Assembly: GCA_025456345.1 (NCBI GenBank)
Contig: JALOKU010000005.1
Coordinates: 1-64,000 of the forward strand
Source of the DNA: Vicinamibacterales bacterium
GTDB lineage: Bacteria > Acidobacteriota > Vicinamibacteria > Vicinamibacterales > JAKQTR01
Direction of reading: 5' to 3'
DNA: 64,000 nt
Shown: one piece after another, positions 5,011 to 12,499 of the stretch
Layout of the letters: every line of letters begins with the position of its first letter
Position numbering within the stretch: position 1 is the stretch's first letter
Notes under the pieces: model-generated
Database searches by the model: none
The model's input: the letters and a program-made list of their open reading frames with translations, nothing else
What the model was told of the DNA's origin: nothing
Translations under genes and position numbers: made by a program

Positions 5011-6485
5011 TGCCCGGGTGGTTTTCGCTCAACGACCTGTACTACATCCTGCCCGAGCTCGTGCTCGCGGTGGGGGCCCTTGCGACGCTCGTCGCCACGG
5101 CGCTCACGCGGAGGTCCCGCCAGGCCTGGCTGTCGTGGCTCGGCATCGGGGTGCTTGCGGCCTCGGCCCTGGCGATGATCGCGGTTACGCCGGACGCGCC
5201 GGTCAACGTCGCGCGCGGGCTGCTCTCGATCGACGGGTTCAGCACCTTCTTCAAGGCCATCTTCCTGTTGTCCGCGGTCCTCACGCTGCTCCTGTCGATG
5301 CGCTACCTCGACATGGAGGGGGCCCGGCACGGCGAGTACGTGTTCCTGGTCCTGTGCGCCACCCTCGGCATGATGTTCATGGCGACGGGCACGGATCTCA
5401 TCACCATCTTCGTCGGCCTCGAGACGATGGCGATCGCGTTCTACATCCTGGCCGGGCTGCTCAAGCCCGACCGGCGGTCGAACGAAGCCGCGGTGAAGTA
5501 CTTCCTGCTCGGCACGTTCTCCCTCGGCATCCTGCTCTACGGGATCTCGATCCTCTACGGGATGTCGGGGACGACGAACCTGCGGGCCCTCGCCATCGCG
5601 GTCGCCGACCAGGGGCGAGACCCCTGGCTCATCCTCGCGCTCATCCTGGTCGTCGCCGGCATCGGCTTCAAGATCGCGGCCGTCCCGTTCCACATGTGGG
5701 CGCCCGACGTGTACGAGGGGGCGCCGACGCCGATTACCGCGTTCCTCTCGGTGGGATCGAAGGCGGCCTCCTTCGCGATGCTGCTGCGGATCTTCCTGGA
5801 GGGCCTGCCGTCGCTCTCGGCCGACTGGACGATCCTCTTCTACGTGCTCTCGGTCGTGACCATGACCGTGGGCAACATCGCCGCGCTGACGCAGAGCAAC
5901 ATCAAGCGCATGCTGGCGTACTCGTCGATCGCGCACGCAGGCTACCTGCTCATCGGCGTGATCGCCGGGACGAGCCGCGGCGTGGCCGCGATGCTCATCT
6001 ACCTGGCCATCTATGCGTTCATGCAGTTTGGCGCCTTCGCCGTGGTCATCCTGCTGCGGCGCGCCGACGCCATCGGCGACGAGCTCAAGGACCTGAGCGG
6101 GCTCTACGCCAGGCAGCCGTTCCCGGCCGTCGCCATGCTGATCTTCATGCTGTCGCTCGGCGGCATCCCGCCGACCGCCGGCTTCATGGGGAAGTTCTGG
6201 CTCTTCAGCGCGGCGATCGACGCCAACTACGTCTGGCTGGCCGTGCTGGGCGTCGTCAACAGCGCCATCTCCCTCTACTACTACCTGCGCGTGGTCGTCT
6301 TCATGTTCATGAAGAACGAGGCCGCCGGCTCGCAGCCCGTGCTGTCTCCCGGCCTGGCGGTGGCGCTGGTGGTCACGCTGGCGGGCACCCTGGTGCTCGG
6401 CGTCTACCCGCGGCCGCTCTTCGAGCTGGCCGAGTTCTCAGCCCGCGCCCTCGGCGTGGTGGGGGTGGCGGCGACGCCGTTCTGA
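5010..6485 (+). CDS. nuoN: NADH-quinone oxidoreductase subunit N
   Basis: The third antiporter-like subunit of complex I (491 residues, normal length). Diagnostic stretches are FVGLETMAIAFYILAG near 131-146, the Lys/His-containing GIGFKIAAVPFHMWAPDVYEGAPTPITAFLS near 219-249, and NIKRMLAYSSIAHAGYLL near 297-314. About 13-14 membrane helices are visible. The start codon overlaps the nuoM stop, implying translational coupling. The gene ends the operon: a purine-rich repeat element begins directly after its stop codon and the next gene is on the other strand. Confidence 0.95.
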   Translation: MPGWFSLNDLYYILPELVLAVGALATLVATALTRRSRQAWLSWLGIGVLAASALAMIAVTPDAPVNVARGLLSIDGFSTFFKAIFLLSAVLTLLLSMRYLDMEGARHGEYVFLVLCATLGMMFMATGTDLITIFVGLETMAIAFYILAGLLKPDRRSNEAAVKYFLLGTFSLGILLYGISILYGMSGTTNLRALAIAVADQGRDPWLILALILVVAGIGFKIAAVPFHMWAPDVYEGAPTPITAFLSVGSKAASFAMLLRIFLEGLPSLSADWTILFYVLSVVTMTVGNIAALTQSNIKRMLAYSSIAHAGYLLIGVIAGTSRGVAAMLIYLAIYAFMQFGAFAVVILLRRADAIGDELKDLSGLYARQPFPAVAMLIFMLSLGGIPPTAGFMGKFWLFSAAIDANYVWLAVLGVVNSAISLYYYLRVVVFMFMKNEAAGSQPVLSPGLAVALVVTLAGTLVLGVYPRPLFELAEFSARALGVVGVAATPF

Positions 6486-6610
6486 AGAAGAAGCAAGAAG
6501 TTAGAAGCAAGAAGCAAGAAGCAAGAAGCAAGAAGCAAGAAGAAGACTCCCAGCTGCAGCTCGTCGTCTTCTGGATTCTGACAATCGTCAGTGGGCCCTT
6601 CTGGCTTCTT
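6486..6610. repeat. Dispersed GAAGCAA / CTGAC-GTCAG repeat element, copy 1
   Basis: It begins immediately after the nuoN stop codon. About 55 nt (6487-6543) are a degenerate run of the 7-mer GAAGCAA. After a 30-nt linker come pyrimidine-rich arms (complementary in type to the first run) that flank a small hairpin, CTGAC-AATC-GTCAG, inside TTCTGACAATCGTCAGTGGG at 6576-6595. The same core and arms recur at 29152-29287, 23 kb away, in the other orientation and again directly after a stop codon. The arms can pair, so the transcript would fold into a long hairpin. It could be a REP/MITE-like element or a terminator substitute; no protein is encoded. Confidence 0.7.
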
Positions 6611-6645: not shown

Positions 6646-8052
6646 CTACTCCCCGAACAGCCCCCTGCCCCCGCCGAACACGCGGCGGCGGCAGTTGCGG
6701 CTGCCGCAGGTGCAGTCAAAGGGCGTCATGTGGCGGTCGTAGAACGTCGCGTAATCGACCGTCAGCTCCTCGCCGCTGCGGATGTCGCGCCGCGCCACGA
6801 GGTTGAGGCCCACAAACTCGGTGTTGGGGTCGCAGGAGTGGTTCTGCGGCGCCCAGCCCGTCGGTTCCGTGTCCCAGAGGACGAACACGTCCGGGCTGAT
6901 GGGATAGGCGTAGCGGTAGAAGACCTCGCGGTCCTCCGCGGACCACGTCCGCTCGACGTGGGAGCGCGTGACGATGCGCTGTGGCTTCCCTTCACCTTCG
7001 AACGCAACCGAGCCGCAGGGGAGATCGCGGGCGGCGAACATGGCGAAGCCGTCGCGGCTGGGCTTGACCGCGTACGGCAGCTGCCGCCGCGCGTGGCGCG
7101 CCAGGCCTTCGTCGATGATGGCGCGGAGGAAGCCGGCCTGGCCGATTCCGTCGAACGCGAGGATGTAGTCCGCGGACCCTTGGTACCCCTGCGGGTAGAA
7201 CACCGAGCAGGTGAAGTTGGCTTCCAGGAAGAAGATCCGTCCTGCGGCGTCCACGCGGAAGTCCATCCTGGCGTAGCCCTCGCCGGTGAAGCCGGTGAAC
7301 ACCTGGATGGCCGCCGCCTTCAGGCGGTCGGCGAGGCCGGGCTCCGTGCACGGCACGTTGCACTCCGGGTGGAATTGGGTGACCTTGAGATCATAGGTCT
7401 TGAAGTGCGGGCCGGGCGGGAAGATGAACTCGATCGGGGTGAGGGCCGCCGGAGGCAGCGCGGGATCCGGGTTCGCCATCACGAGGACGGTGAACTCGCG
7501 TCCGTCCACGTACTCCTCGACCAGCAGGCGTCCGAACTCCGGCAGTTTGGCCGCGACCTGCTGCTGCAGCTCTACGGGCGTCGCCACCAGCGAGTGCTCG
7601 TCGATGCCCATGCTGTCGCCGTAAGCGGACGGCTTGACGAAAAGCGGTAACCGCAACGCGTTCGCTGCCGCCAGGACATCGTCGCCCGGGTCGACCACTT
7701 CCCAGGCCGGCACGACGACGCCCGACGAGATGGCCACCAGCTTCATCAGGTCCTTGGGCGGGTCGTACAGGCGGCTGGATGGTCCCGTGAAGGGCAGGTT
7801 CAGGTCCTCGAGGGCGTGGATCACGTCAATCGACGGCACGTCGGAGTCGCGGTACCCCTCGCAGAGGTTGACGTAGACGTCGAAGCCCTGCCGCTGCCGC
7901 GCCTTGATCTGGCTGAACGCCGAGATCTTGTCCAGAAACTCGTGGTGGAACTCGTGCTCGGGCAGCAGGTGCGAGAGATCGCGGCGCTGATCGTAGTGCT
8001 GGTAGTCGCACGACGATCCCGCGTACGACGGCTGGAGGACGCAGATCCGCAT
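6646..8052 (-). CDS. ATP-grasp ligase (Ddl-like) fused to a SET-domain methyltransferase
   Basis: A 468-residue two-domain protein. Residues 1 to about 320 form an ATP-grasp fold of the D-Ala-D-Ala ligase type: ATP Lys in FVKPSAYGDSMGI (139-150), the VEEYVDGREFTVL strand (178-190), and the Mg ligands in ARMDFRVDAAGRIFFLEANF (D264, E277, N279). Residues about 325-455 are a SET protein-lysine methyltransferase domain with the knot motifs NHSCDPN (404-410) and GEELTVDYATF (427-437), plus a post-SET Cys cluster (CTCGSRNC, 447-454). The ligase should make a peptide-type bond and the SET domain should methylate a lysine with AdoMet. The substrate is unknown. It lies 3 nt downstream of another ATP-grasp gene, so the two are surely co-transcribed. 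Confidence 0.85.
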   Translation of the reverse strand: MRICVLQPSYAGSSCDYQHYDQRRDLSHLLPEHEFHHEFLDKISAFSQIKARQRQGFDVYVNLCEGYRDSDVPSIDVIHALEDLNLPFTGPSSRLYDPPKDLMKLVAISSGVVVPAWEVVDPGDDVLAAANALRLPLFVKPSAYGDSMGIDEHSLVATPVELQQQVAAKLPEFGRLLVEEYVDGREFTVLVMANPDPALPPAALTPIEFIFPPGPHFKTYDLKVTQFHPECNVPCTEPGLADRLKAAAIQVFTGFTGEGYARMDFRVDAAGRIFFLEANFTCSVFYPQGYQGSADYILAFDGIGQAGFLRAIIDEGLARHARRQLPYAVKPSRDGFAMFAARDLPCGSVAFEGEGKPQRIVTRSHVERTWSAEDREVFYRYAYPISPDVFVLWDTEPTGWAPQNHSCDPNTEFVGLNLVARRDIRSGEELTVDYATFYDRHMTPFDCTCGSRNCRRRVFGGGRGLFGE

Positions 8053-8055
8053 GGG

Positions 8056-9171
8056 TCAGGCCAGCCGCCGGTGACCGTTGGCGGCGTGGCGGTCGTACGC
8101 GTCGCGCAGGATCTCGGACACCAGGCTGGTGGCCGGGATCTCCGACTGCAGCAGGATCTCGCCGACGGAGGTTTCCTTGTCGCCGGAGATGCCGCAGTTC
8201 GCGTTCACCTCCAGGACGAACAACTCGTCGGTCCGCTCCTCGAGGCGGATATCGACGCGCCCGTACCCCTGCCCGCCGACCGCCGCGAACGCCTCGACGG
8301 CCAGCTCCGCGAGGCGGCCGCGCAACTGCGCGGGCGCCTGGCCGAACCGGTAGAACGGCTCGCCCTCGGGCAGCCGCGACTCTACCTTGTACTCGGACCA
8401 GTAGCGGTCGTAGCTCAGGAACCGCTCGTGGCGCGGCAGGGCCGAGTGGAAGAGCCGCTGGGCGGGCGGATACGCCCGGGCGCCCAGGGGCGCTGCGGCG
8501 TCGGCGACGACGAGCACCGTGAACTCGGGCCCGTCGATGAACCGCTCGGCGAAGATGCCGGATTTTCGGTAGAACTCACCGTCTTCGCTCGCGAGCAGCG
8601 CCGTCACGCGGGCCATCACCTCACCGGCGTCGTGCGCGCGGGACTTCAACCCGATCCCGCCGCTGCCGGCCGAGACCTCGGGCTTCACGAACGCAGGGTA
8701 GCCGACCTCGGCCTCCACTCTCGCGACGTCCGCAGGCAGATCGCGCAGGGCGACGAAGGGCGCCGTCGGCACGCCGTGCTCACGAAGCGCGGTCTTGAGC
8801 GCGACCTTGTACGTCGTGATGTCGTAGAAGAACTCGGAGCCTCCCGTGTAGGGGAGTCCGGAGTCCTCGAGGGCGCGCACGACCGACACCCCGGGCGACC
8901 CGTCCACCTCGTTGCCGTCGCACAGGTTCATGACGAGGCACCGATGGGCCAGACGCGCAGGCTCGAGCGCGTCGATGGTCGATCGCAGGTTGTTGACGGT
9001 GACCGGAACCCAGCGCCACTCATAGCCGAGCGCGGCGAACCAGCCGTGCAGCTCGTCGCGAAAATCGGGAAGGTCGTACTCGGGGCTCTCGAGCTTGCCG
9101 CCCTTGTCGTAGTACGGGATGAACACCGAGACCGTGGGACGCCAGACTTCGAACGGTTCAAGTACTCCCAT
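8056..9171 (-). CDS. ATP-grasp ligase, D-alanine-D-alanine ligase-like
   Basis: A 371-residue ATP-grasp protein. Visible motifs are the ATP-binding Lys region YPAFVKPEVSAGSGGIGLKS, the FIDGPEFTVLVVAD strand, and the metal-binding end YGRVDIRLEERTDELFVLEVNANCGIS. The N-terminal domain (VSVFIPYYDKGG, CLVMNLCDG) resembles the substrate domain of Ddl, but the protein is not in a cell-wall gene context. It is the first gene of a two-gene minus-strand operon, followed after 3 nt by the ATP-grasp-SET fusion. I chose the ATG at 9171; an upstream start at 9237 in the same frame is possible. It probably ligates an amino acid or peptide carboxylate in a pathway shared with its neighbour. Confidence 0.8.
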   Translation of the reverse strand: MGVLEPFEVWRPTVSVFIPYYDKGGKLESPEYDLPDFRDELHGWFAALGYEWRWVPVTVNNLRSTIDALEPARLAHRCLVMNLCDGNEVDGSPGVSVVRALEDSGLPYTGGSEFFYDITTYKVALKTALREHGVPTAPFVALRDLPADVARVEAEVGYPAFVKPEVSAGSGGIGLKSRAHDAGEVMARVTALLASEDGEFYRKSGIFAERFIDGPEFTVLVVADAAAPLGARAYPPAQRLFHSALPRHERFLSYDRYWSEYKVESRLPEGEPFYRFGQAPAQLRGRLAELAVEAFAAVGGQGYGRVDIRLEERTDELFVLEVNANCGISGDKETSVGEILLQSEIPATSLVSEILRDAYDRHAANGHRRLA

Positions 9172-9258
9172 TGCGACCGGACCTTGCCTCCTGACGGATC
9201 GCGCGCACCACGATGTTAACGATCGGCGTGATGGCATACAAGCATAGAATGCGGGGTC

Positions 9259-10127: not shown

Positions 10128-11486
10128 TTACCCTGCGCGTGAATCGCCGGTTGGCGCGCCCCGCTCGGCCGCGCCTGGCCACGCAAACCCTTCCCTCGAG
10201 AGCCACGCCAGGCCGGTCACGAAGAGCACGAGCGCCGGAACGGGCTTCGTCAACTGGACCGCCATCCGCTCCAGGAACGTCCACGACTTCAGGTCCGCCC
10301 CGAGGAGGGCGAACGGCGTGGGCAGCGCCAGCACCACGAGACTCACGGCCGCCGTCCATGCGCAGATGCGATCGAATCGCTCCGGATGGCGCGCCCGCTG
10401 GCCCGTCGCGGCTGCCGGCCGTCCGAGATCCAGGAGCAAGAACGCTCCGGCCAGGATGGCCGCGCTCATGTGATGCTCCCATACCTGGAACGAGGCGAGG
10501 AACTGCGCGAGCAGAAGCACGCCGGTTTCGGCGTAGAGAGCCCGCCGCCGGGCCAGGACGACCACGAGCCCGGCCGAGCCGAGGCAGATCGCCAGCGCGA
10601 GTTGAACCACCAGGGGCCAGGTGGCGCGGGCCGGCGCGAACCCGAAGTGCTCGCTGGCCAGGTGGAGGACGTAGAGCGCGCCGAAATTGCCGGGATTGGG
10701 GGGCACCACCGCGTTGGCCGCCAGGAACTCCCGCCAGAGCTGCGGCCGGGCCAGGAAGGGCAGGGCCCCGCCGAAGACGACAAGCGTTGCGGCCACCGCA
10801 AGCGACAGCCACAGGCGCCTGCGGCGCACCCAGGCGAACAGGGCCACCGCGGGGTAGAGCTTGAGCAGCGCCGCCATTGCCGCAACGACGCCAGCGGCCA
10901 CGCGTGACCCCAGGCGGCGTCGCGGGGTCGACCCGAGCCGGCTCAACCACAGGGCCACGCCCAGCAGGGCTCCGGTCACGAAGGTGAACTGCCCCATGTG
11001 GAGTTCGAGGAAGAACGGCGTACTGAGGACGAGCGCAAGCCAGCCGACGAACCCTGCCGAATCCTGCCACAGTCCCCGCAGCACGACGAGCGCCACCAAC
11101 CAGAACAGCAACTCGGTGACGACGACCCAGGCGCGATAGGCCGCGAGCGGGGGCACGAGGCTCACCATCCGGCCCAGCGTGGACGCGACGGCCGGCAGAT
11201 AACGGAACTCGAAGAAGTACGGCGTGACGCCGCCGGATCGCTCGTAGGTGGAGTAGGGGGACACGCCGGACCGGTTGTTGACTCCGGCATGATAGACCGC
11301 GAAGAAATCGATCCCCGGCCCGTTGTAGTAGGTGCTGTCGAAGTGGAGCGGCCACGTCAGGAACCGCGGCGCCTCCGGATGCGCCCGGAGGTTCAGGGGC
11401 TGTCTGAGGACTGACGCGGTCACCGACAGGTGGAGCAGAACGGCGATGCCGGCAACGACGGCCTTGGTGGACATGCGACCCATCAT
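10128..11486 (-). CDS. GT-C membrane glycosyltransferase, GT87 (DUF2029)-like
   Basis: About 452 residues with roughly ten membrane helices. The first periplasmic loop holds FDSTYYNGPGIDFFAVYHAG, an Asp-containing site typical of polyprenyl-phosphate-dependent GT-C enzymes, and the mid-region ALLKLYPAVALFAWV matches the 'LKxxP' helix of GT87 mannosyltransferases. It would transfer a sugar from a lipid carrier on the outer face of the inner membrane. I use the ATG at 11486, preceded by a GGCGGGGG stretch; the longer frame upstream is Arg-rich and unlikely. The gene is inserted on the opposite strand between the two halves of the atp locus, ending 33 nt from atpI. Confidence 0.7.
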   Translation of the reverse strand: MMGRMSTKAVVAGIAVLLHLSVTASVLRQPLNLRAHPEAPRFLTWPLHFDSTYYNGPGIDFFAVYHAGVNNRSGVSPYSTYERSGGVTPYFFEFRYLPAVASTLGRMVSLVPPLAAYRAWVVVTELLFWLVALVVLRGLWQDSAGFVGWLALVLSTPFFLELHMGQFTFVTGALLGVALWLSRLGSTPRRRLGSRVAAGVVAAMAALLKLYPAVALFAWVRRRRLWLSLAVAATLVVFGGALPFLARPQLWREFLAANAVVPPNPGNFGALYVLHLASEHFGFAPARATWPLVVQLALAICLGSAGLVVVLARRRALYAETGVLLLAQFLASFQVWEHHMSAAILAGAFLLLDLGRPAAATGQRARHPERFDRICAWTAAVSLVVLALPTPFALLGADLKSWTFLERMAVQLTKPVPALVLFVTGLAWLSREGFAWPGAAERGAPTGDSRAG

Positions 11487-11594
11487 CCCCCGCCTGACTG
11501 GCCTCGCGCCGCCAGCATCCGTGGCCGCCCTCCGCGAGTTGCACGGATTGTACACGACGCAGGTCGGCGGCTGCCGCGCCATTGCACCGTGCGC

Positions 11595-11624
11595 TTTACC
11601 GGTGGGCCGCCCATGGGATATCCT
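11595..11624 (+). promoter_or_regulatory. Possible promoter upstream of atpB
   Basis: TTTACC at 11595-11600 and TATCCT at 11619-11624 are separated by 18 nt. Each matches four of six consensus bases. The position fits a transcript starting near 11631 for atpB-atpE, which are separated from the atpI genes by an opposite-strand gene and so need their own promoter. Confidence 0.35.
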
Positions 11625-11689
11625 AAAGCGTTTACATGGCCACCCGACGAGCGGCACGCGCGCTCGGCGAGGGGTGGAGTCGCGCAGGC

Positions 11690-12499
11690 ATGGAAAAACT
11701 CGAACACCCGCTCTGGATCGTCGACGCGGCCAACCGGATCTTCGGGCCCGCGGTGAACGCACTGCTCGGCCTCGTCGGCATGCAGGCTGCGGACCCGGCG
11801 AACCCGATCCCGAACTACCTGGTGATGGCCTACCTGGTCGTGTTCGCGCTGATCGCCCTGGCCTTCGTCCTGCGGTCGCGGCTGAGCGTCGAGAACCCGG
11901 GCAAGCTCCAGATCGTGTTCGAGGATCTGGTCGGCGGCCTGTCGGGCATGTTGTCGGACATCGTCGGACCGAAAGGCCCGGGCTACATATCGCTGGTCGG
12001 CACCATCGGCGCTTTCATCCTGGCCTGCAATCTGATCGGCATGGTCCCCGGCTTCATGTCGCCCACGAGCAGCATCAACGTCACGCTCGGCTGCGCCCTC
12101 ACGGTGTGGGTCTACTACCACTACCACGGCATGAAGGAGCAGGGCATCGGGCCGTACCTGAAGCACTTCGCGGCTCCTCCGGGTGCGCCGCTGTTTATCG
12201 CGCCCATCATGCTGCCCGTCGAGATCATCAGCCACTTCTCGCGGGTGCTCTCGTTGTCGCTGCGGCTGTTCGGGAACGTCTTCGGAGAAGAGCTGGTCAT
12301 CCTGATTCTGTTCAGCATCGTGCCATTCTTCGCGCCGCTGCCCATCATGTTCCTGGGCATGATCACGATGCCGCTCCAGGCGTTCATCTTCGTCATGCTG
12401 ACGATGATCTACCTGGGCGGCGCGGTGGCGGCGGAGCACGGGCACGAGGAATCTCATGGACACGGAGAGGCCGTCGGCGCGCATGGCGTCGCGGCCTAG
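11690..12499 (+). CDS. atpB: F-type ATP synthase subunit a
   Basis: The proton/ion channel subunit of Fo. The essential Arg helix reads SHFSRVLSLSLRLFGNVFGEELVILIL, with the catalytic Arg in SLRLFGN, and the last helix region ends FVMLTMIYLGGAVAAEHGHEE. Five to six membrane helices are visible in about 269 residues. I start at ATG 11690 (MEKLEHPLW); an in-frame ATG at 11636 would add an Arg/Ala-rich extension. atpE follows after 38 nt. The genes for b, delta, alpha, gamma, beta and epsilon are not nearby, so Fo and F1 genes are split in this genome. Confidence 0.93.
   Translation: MEKLEHPLWIVDAANRIFGPAVNALLGLVGMQAADPANPIPNYLVMAYLVVFALIALAFVLRSRLSVENPGKLQIVFEDLVGGLSGMLSDIVGPKGPGYISLVGTIGAFILACNLIGMVPGFMSPTSSINVTLGCALTVWVYYHYHGMKEQGIGPYLKHFAAPPGAPLFIAPIMLPVEIISHFSRVLSLSLRLFGNVFGEELVILILFSIVPFFAPLPIMFLGMITMPLQAFIFVMLTMIYLGGAVAAEHGHEESHGHGEAVGAHGVAA

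Follow-up and report, generated by a model that had tools for sequence, protein, structure and literature searches.

In a Vicinamibacterales bacterium, two adjacent genes may well be the central part of a biosynthetic cassette that has spread horizontally and directs the synthesis of a small methylated peptide by a non-ribosomal route. They are located in the 64,000-nucleotide stretch of DNA analysed here, referred to as the window. The first gene of the pair, G1 (8056..9171, minus strand), encodes a stand-alone Ddl-like ATP-grasp ligase of 371 aa. The second, G2-SET (6646-8052, minus strand), encodes a 468-aa protein, in which another ATP-grasp ligase is fused to a complete SET domain. The proposed role is based on the paired intact ligases, the fused intact methyltransferase, their co-inheritance, the transporters located beside the cassette in other genomes, and the BurB-like SET protein encoded in fuller cassettes.

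The ATP-grasp half of G2-SET, termed G2, comprises residues 1-325 (7078..8052, minus strand) and was recognized by both Pfam (PF07478) and Foldseek. The SET domain comprises residues 326-460 (6673..7077, minus strand) and is supported by Pfam (PF00856), the SET tree, and dN/dS ratios. It contains the NHSCDPN motif of the SAM-binding core (residues 404-410; 6823..6843, minus strand), which is conserved in the fusions; the GEELTVDYA motif (residues 427-435; 6748..6774, minus strand), which holds the catalytic-site Tyr434 and is supported by conservation and by alignment with BurB; and the post-SET cysteines C447, C449, and C454 (CxCx4C; 6691..6714, minus strand), which are conserved in 31 fusions. 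The longest open reading frame of G1 begins at 9237, but alignment with relatives favours the start at 9171. The two genes are separated by 3 nt (8053..8055, minus strand), which is consistent with a single transcript; a sigma-70 promoter scan gave no result. Both flanking genes lie on the opposite strand and encode NADH-dehydrogenase subunit N (Proton_antipo_M; nuoN) and the ATPase_gene1 protein of the atp operon. The initial annotation of this region, which had listed tandem ATP-grasp ligases, a SET domain with these three motifs on the second of them, the 3-nt spacing, and flanks belonging to complex I and ATP synthase, was thus accurate in its description of the genes. Part of the DNA separating nuoN from the fusion gene consists of tandem repeats of the 7-mer GAAGCAA (9.3 copies, 6484-6546).

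The Pfam domain Dala_Dala_lig_C (PF07478) was detected above its curated cut-off in G1 (E=2.5e-12) and in the ligase half of G2-SET (E=2.3e-18, residues 122-279). The SET domain (PF00856) was identified at residues 335-434 with E=6.3e-9 and a score of 36.6 bits against a cut-off of 22.4; along with this score, G2-SET possesses the NHSC motif, the catalytic tyrosine, and the post-SET cysteines that define a SET domain. AlphaFold2 models were obtained with mean pLDDT values of 88.0 (G1; pTM 0.89) and 88.8 (G2-SET; pTM 0.86). In Foldseek searches, the best matches of G1 were all Ddl, and Ddl was also the best match of G2.

The catalytic residues K122, K163, E209, E216, R305, D307, E321, and N323 are invariant among 24 G1 proteins. 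Similarly, K104, E179, E180, E186, R262, D264, E277, and N279 of G2 are invariant in 31 fusions, while K140 is retained in 30 of them. In the SET domain, H405, C407, C447, C449, and C454 are invariant in the same set; N404 is present in 29 and Tyr434, which aligns with Tyr124 of BurB, in 30 of the 31 proteins. C407 and the three post-SET cysteines are expected to serve as zinc ligands. This near-complete conservation of the catalytic residues suggests that the two ligases and the methyltransferase are active. The dN/dS ratios within the genus, which are 0.18-0.24 for G1, 0.18-0.32 for the ligase half of G2-SET, and 0.13-0.21 for the SET domain, indicate that the pair is under purifying selection and represents neither chance nor decay.

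D-alanine-D-alanine ligases share with both proteins the ATP-grasp fold, the PF07478 domain, and the catalytic Lys, Glu, Arg-x-Asp, and Glu-x-Asn. G1 and G2-SET, however, miss the curated Ddl cut-offs by approximately 170 bits or more: the two proteins score 74.5 and 69.5 bits against NF002378 (cut-off 243) and 71.3 and 57.7 bits against TIGR01205 (cut-off 245.65). No specific NCBIfam model was found for either of them. A canonical Ddl (338 bits) is encoded elsewhere in the genome from which the window derives, which makes it unlikely that the pair serves as the ligase of the cell wall. The Ddl-type ligases could also serve envelope chemistry by making an altered peptide stem, an altered cross-bridge, or a side chain of the capsule or teichuronopeptide type, which the SET domain would methylate. 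Such a role would fit the cassette of Brasilonema (L053:5942-12363), which carries a gene of the FemAB/GNAT type between its SET gene and G1. This gene, however, occurs in one locus only and no Mur-type genes were present among the scanned cassette neighbours; given also the separate canonical Ddl and the low scores against the Ddl models, we consider an envelope function improbable. Another tandem pair of Ddl-like ATP-grasp ligases, without a SET domain, was observed in a distant family of the window's phylum (L033:6138-8277).

A scan of 84,980 genomes revealed approximately 35 further fusion loci in about ten phyla. The majority belong to the Bacteroidota; other carriers are members of the Acidobacteriota, Deltaproteobacteria, Verrucomicrobiota, Gemmatimonadota, Cyanobacteriota (Brasilonema), Chloroflexota (Caldilineaceae), Planctomycetota, and Chlorobiota, the latter being represented by a cultured strain, Chlorobium ferrooxidans DSM 13031. 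Most of these loci are from metagenome-assembled genomes, and their neighbour genes were called by simple ORF rules. Within the phylum of the window, one other fused relative (G130) was found among 396 genomes. All three genomes of the window's genus contain the pair. The window and G002 have it between nuoN and the atpI-side genes; the short contig of the third genome includes only the nuoN side. No match at E <= 1e-20 was obtained outside this genus in the other genomes among 60 relatives, and in the sister genus (G004) the interval between nuoN and the atpI-side genes is occupied by an unrelated 675-aa ORF. The pair was thus gained in the window's genus. The surroundings of the cassette also differ between carriers, with def/fmt in L036 and nuoN/atp genes in the window; together with the sporadic spread, this suggests transfer of the cassette as a unit. 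The fusion was not found in phages and plasmids, in which the only matches were generic Ddl-like ones and one to a plasmid-borne stand-alone SET gene; of five distant ligase matches in viral contigs, none covered the SET domain. One contig binned as Sphingomonadales (L055) may be misbinned, because both ligase trees place its cassette within the Chitinophagaceae and its mnmG/ybeY synteny resembles theirs.

The two genes had been described as standing alone, which holds for the window's genus only; elsewhere, further cassette genes are located alongside. In the window's clade, G1 accompanies G2-SET at every one of the 29 loci that could be assessed, with two intervening genes in Brasilonema. 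The fuller cassette often consists of a stand-alone SET gene, G1, G2-SET, and a membrane transporter. The extra SET gene, encoding approximately 165 aa, is present in 18 loci; the genomes of the window's genus lack it entirely and possess the pair only. The window genome encodes further SET proteins (C17, C188), which were rejected as cassette components because they are separate SETs and none of their neighbours matched a ligase. The types of transporter vary, and many loci, including the window, have none. A PF13748 ABC membrane protein is encoded just downstream in 10 loci (Bacteroidota, Gemmatimonadota), an EntS-like MFS protein beside the cassette in a Gemmatimonadetes locus, and an amino-acid permease just upstream in Emticicia. 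The cassette of Chlorobium ferrooxidans (L064:7776-12066) includes a complete ABC exporter and three SET domains, i.e., one stand-alone, one fused, and one in a 120-aa protein. A sensor kinase/response regulator pair upstream of the Brasilonema cassette hints at regulated expression. A second clade (L023, L061, L062, L064, and L065) has no G1 anywhere in its genomes.

In the Bacteroidota loci L048, L050-L052, L058, and L059, the region upstream of the pair repeatedly includes genes for an Ntn hydrolase of the penicillin-acylase type and a xylose-isomerase-like protein (e.g., L050:2696-5922), possibly as lineage synteny. Among other neighbours, the genes mnmG, ybeY, ssb, priA, def, and fmt as well as a helicase gene were dismissed as housekeeping synteny rather than components of the cassette, and MacB/HlyD/GH4 genes upstream of SET-less ligases in Anaerolineae, located 300 bp away, were excluded. 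An anti-phage defence system was rejected for lack of any match to PADLOC families for G1, G2-SET, the stand-alone SET protein, the transporter, or the FemAB-like protein.

ATP-grasp ligases are also producers of graspetides (PMC8939145). The cassette could by analogy cross-link a ribosomal precursor that is then methylated by the SET domain. The survey of 24 cassettes and their flanks revealed no conserved precursor peptide or small ORF, and the ligase domains are of the Ddl type, which makes this alternative very improbable. The few small ORFs that are shared were rejected as precursors; they are very short and, in the Bacteroidota loci concerned, occupy flanking DNA beyond the cassette or at its margin.

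The initial annotation had named consistent separation of the SET part as an independent gene in relatives as an observation that would speak against its reading. Instead, the SET domain is fused to the ligase in approximately 35 further loci, and the SET domains of all fusions fall into a single clade that excludes the stand-alone SET proteins (98% SH-aLRT). These were quick trees, with support expressed as SH-aLRT and without bootstrap. In the ligase tree, G1 proteins form one clade (99%) and window-type fusions another (98%), while the remaining five fusions, with twelve SET-less ligases nested among them, make up a further set supported at 98%. Because the fused SET domains share a single origin, the SET-less ligases are best explained by losses of this domain, and their position among fused relatives makes methylation look like a tailoring step. 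The distances between G1 proteins correlate with those between G2 proteins (0.89, p=0.0002; 24 loci), and the stand-alone SET proteins show a correlation of 0.68 with G2 (p=0.002). Unlinked Ddl-like ligases are common in the genomes examined, and one could imagine two ordinary paralogues of this kind, one accidentally fused to a SET domain, with no joint function. We give this explanation hardly any weight, given a fusion with a single SET clade conserved across about ten phyla, the pairing with G1 in 29 of 29 loci, the correlated distances, and purifying selection on the SET domain.

A cassette producing a small methylated peptide would operate as follows. Each ATP-grasp domain would activate a carboxylate as an acyl-phosphate and couple it to an amine. 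With one bond formed by G1 and one by G2, the ligation product would be a di- or tripeptide; G2 alone would suffice in the second clade, which lacks G1. The fused SET domain would methylate a side chain, either on the G2 substrate or on what G2 makes from it, and the finished compound would be moved across the membrane. The methylation would be a tailoring reaction, which several lineages would have lost while keeping the ligase. The earlier proposal of ligation followed by lysine methylation is retained here with regard to ligases acting together and a covalently linked methyl transfer, but not with regard to lysine as the acceptor.

The nature of the acceptor was addressed by comparison with BurB, a SET-domain methionine S-methyltransferase of the malleicyprol/DMSP pathway (PDB 9l4t), which converts free methionine to S-methylmethionine (PMC12542666, PMC7496086). 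The profile of the stand-alone SET proteins, which are found in fuller cassettes and absent in the window, matched BurB over the whole domain at 1.1e-22, versus 4.1e-12 for the best lysine methyltransferase, and BurB was its best PDB match. For the fused SET domain, BurB was narrowly the best solved structure (7.6e-15 versus 5.4e-14 for KMT2A); with values so nearly equal, the sequence score does not discriminate its methyl acceptor. The claim of a lysine acceptor therefore found no support, either in the partner SET protein or in the fused one. In the SET tree, BurB and the stand-alone SET proteins are joined by a weak 83% SH-aLRT, and the deep placement of BurB is weak.

The cassette SET domains retain the equivalents of Tyr124 and His93 of BurB and the post-SET cysteines, and BurB illustrates the use of a free amino acid by a SET enzyme. 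BurB, however, is a stand-alone 172-aa protein, and the fused SET domain has an invariant Trp400 at the position of Ser88, a residue located between SAM and the substrate according to the BurB paper. Since BurB functions in a different type of pathway (NRPS-PKS, DMSP), similarity to it does not fix the substrate. KMT2-type histone lysine methyltransferases share the SET and post-SET motifs with the fused domain. The latter differs in a shorter segment after NHSC, an aliphatic residue two positions before the catalytic tyrosine (29 of 31 fusions), and its linkage to a ligase in a bacterial cassette with transporters. Lysine methyltransferases commonly carry Phe or Tyr two residues before the catalytic Tyr. 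The short segment, the aliphatic residue, and Trp400 separate the fused SET domain from typical lysine enzymes in a way that is suggestive only. The side chain of an amino acid or small peptide, i.e., the sulfur of methionine or an amine, is the more likely acceptor than a protein lysine. The specific formation of an S-methylmethionine sulfonium appears doubtful.

Alternatively, a protein might be the target: the ligases would attach one or two amino acids to it, and the SET domain would methylate a lysine of this protein or of the added residue. Tubulin-tyrosine-ligase-type ATP-grasp enzymes do add amino acids to proteins, and the fused SET domain has canonical NHSC/ELTxDY/post-SET motifs and scores close to KMT2A. 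Among published proteins, only the eukaryotic TTLL12 was found to combine SET-like and ATP-grasp-like parts (PMC3520985). Its order is reversed, however, the SET-like domain being N-terminal and the ligase, of the TTL type, coming after it; several catalytic residues are lost, and methyltransferase activity, including that of the human protein on histones in vitro, was not detected (PMC3520985). Neither G1 nor G2-SET has a TTL match in Pfam. Protein modification is also disfavoured by the absence of a conserved target gene or precursor beside the cassette, the recurrence of transporters, and the BurB-like partner, while the sporadic horizontal spread of a self-contained cassette better suits a metabolite. 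We regard protein modification as unlikely, and a small methylated peptide is most likely the product.

SET enzymes are known almost exclusively as protein methyltransferases. According to the BurB authors, methyltransferases of natural products were previously found only in classes other than SET (PMC7496086). No paper joining an ATP-grasp ligase to a bacterial SET domain was found among the 5.39 million open-access papers searched, in which a description of the cassette appears to be absent; this agrees with the earlier statement that no named system of this architecture was known. A 2009 review by Iyer et al. treats the neighbourhoods of ATP-grasp amidoligases and may already mention the pair. 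We see a somewhat less than even chance that the cassettes represent an undescribed, widely transferred class of small-peptide pathways, in which SET enzymes tailor ATP-grasp-made peptides, ligation and methylation are combined in one polypeptide, and the product is possibly a sulfonium or methylamine dipeptide. If so, bacterial SET enzymes would be a recurring kind of small-molecule enzyme, fused to a ligase in about ten phyla with a BurB-like SET protein alongside, and genes likely auto-annotated as lysine methyltransferases or D-Ala ligases would be assigned a function. Chlorobium ferrooxidans DSM 13031 offers a cultured entry point toward the product.

The window also contains, in antisense orientation within the atp operon, a GT87-type glycosyltransferase gene (10128-11762, minus strand) that separates the atpI-side genes from atpB. 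The corresponding interval in G002, a member of the same genus, is only approximately 160 bp long.
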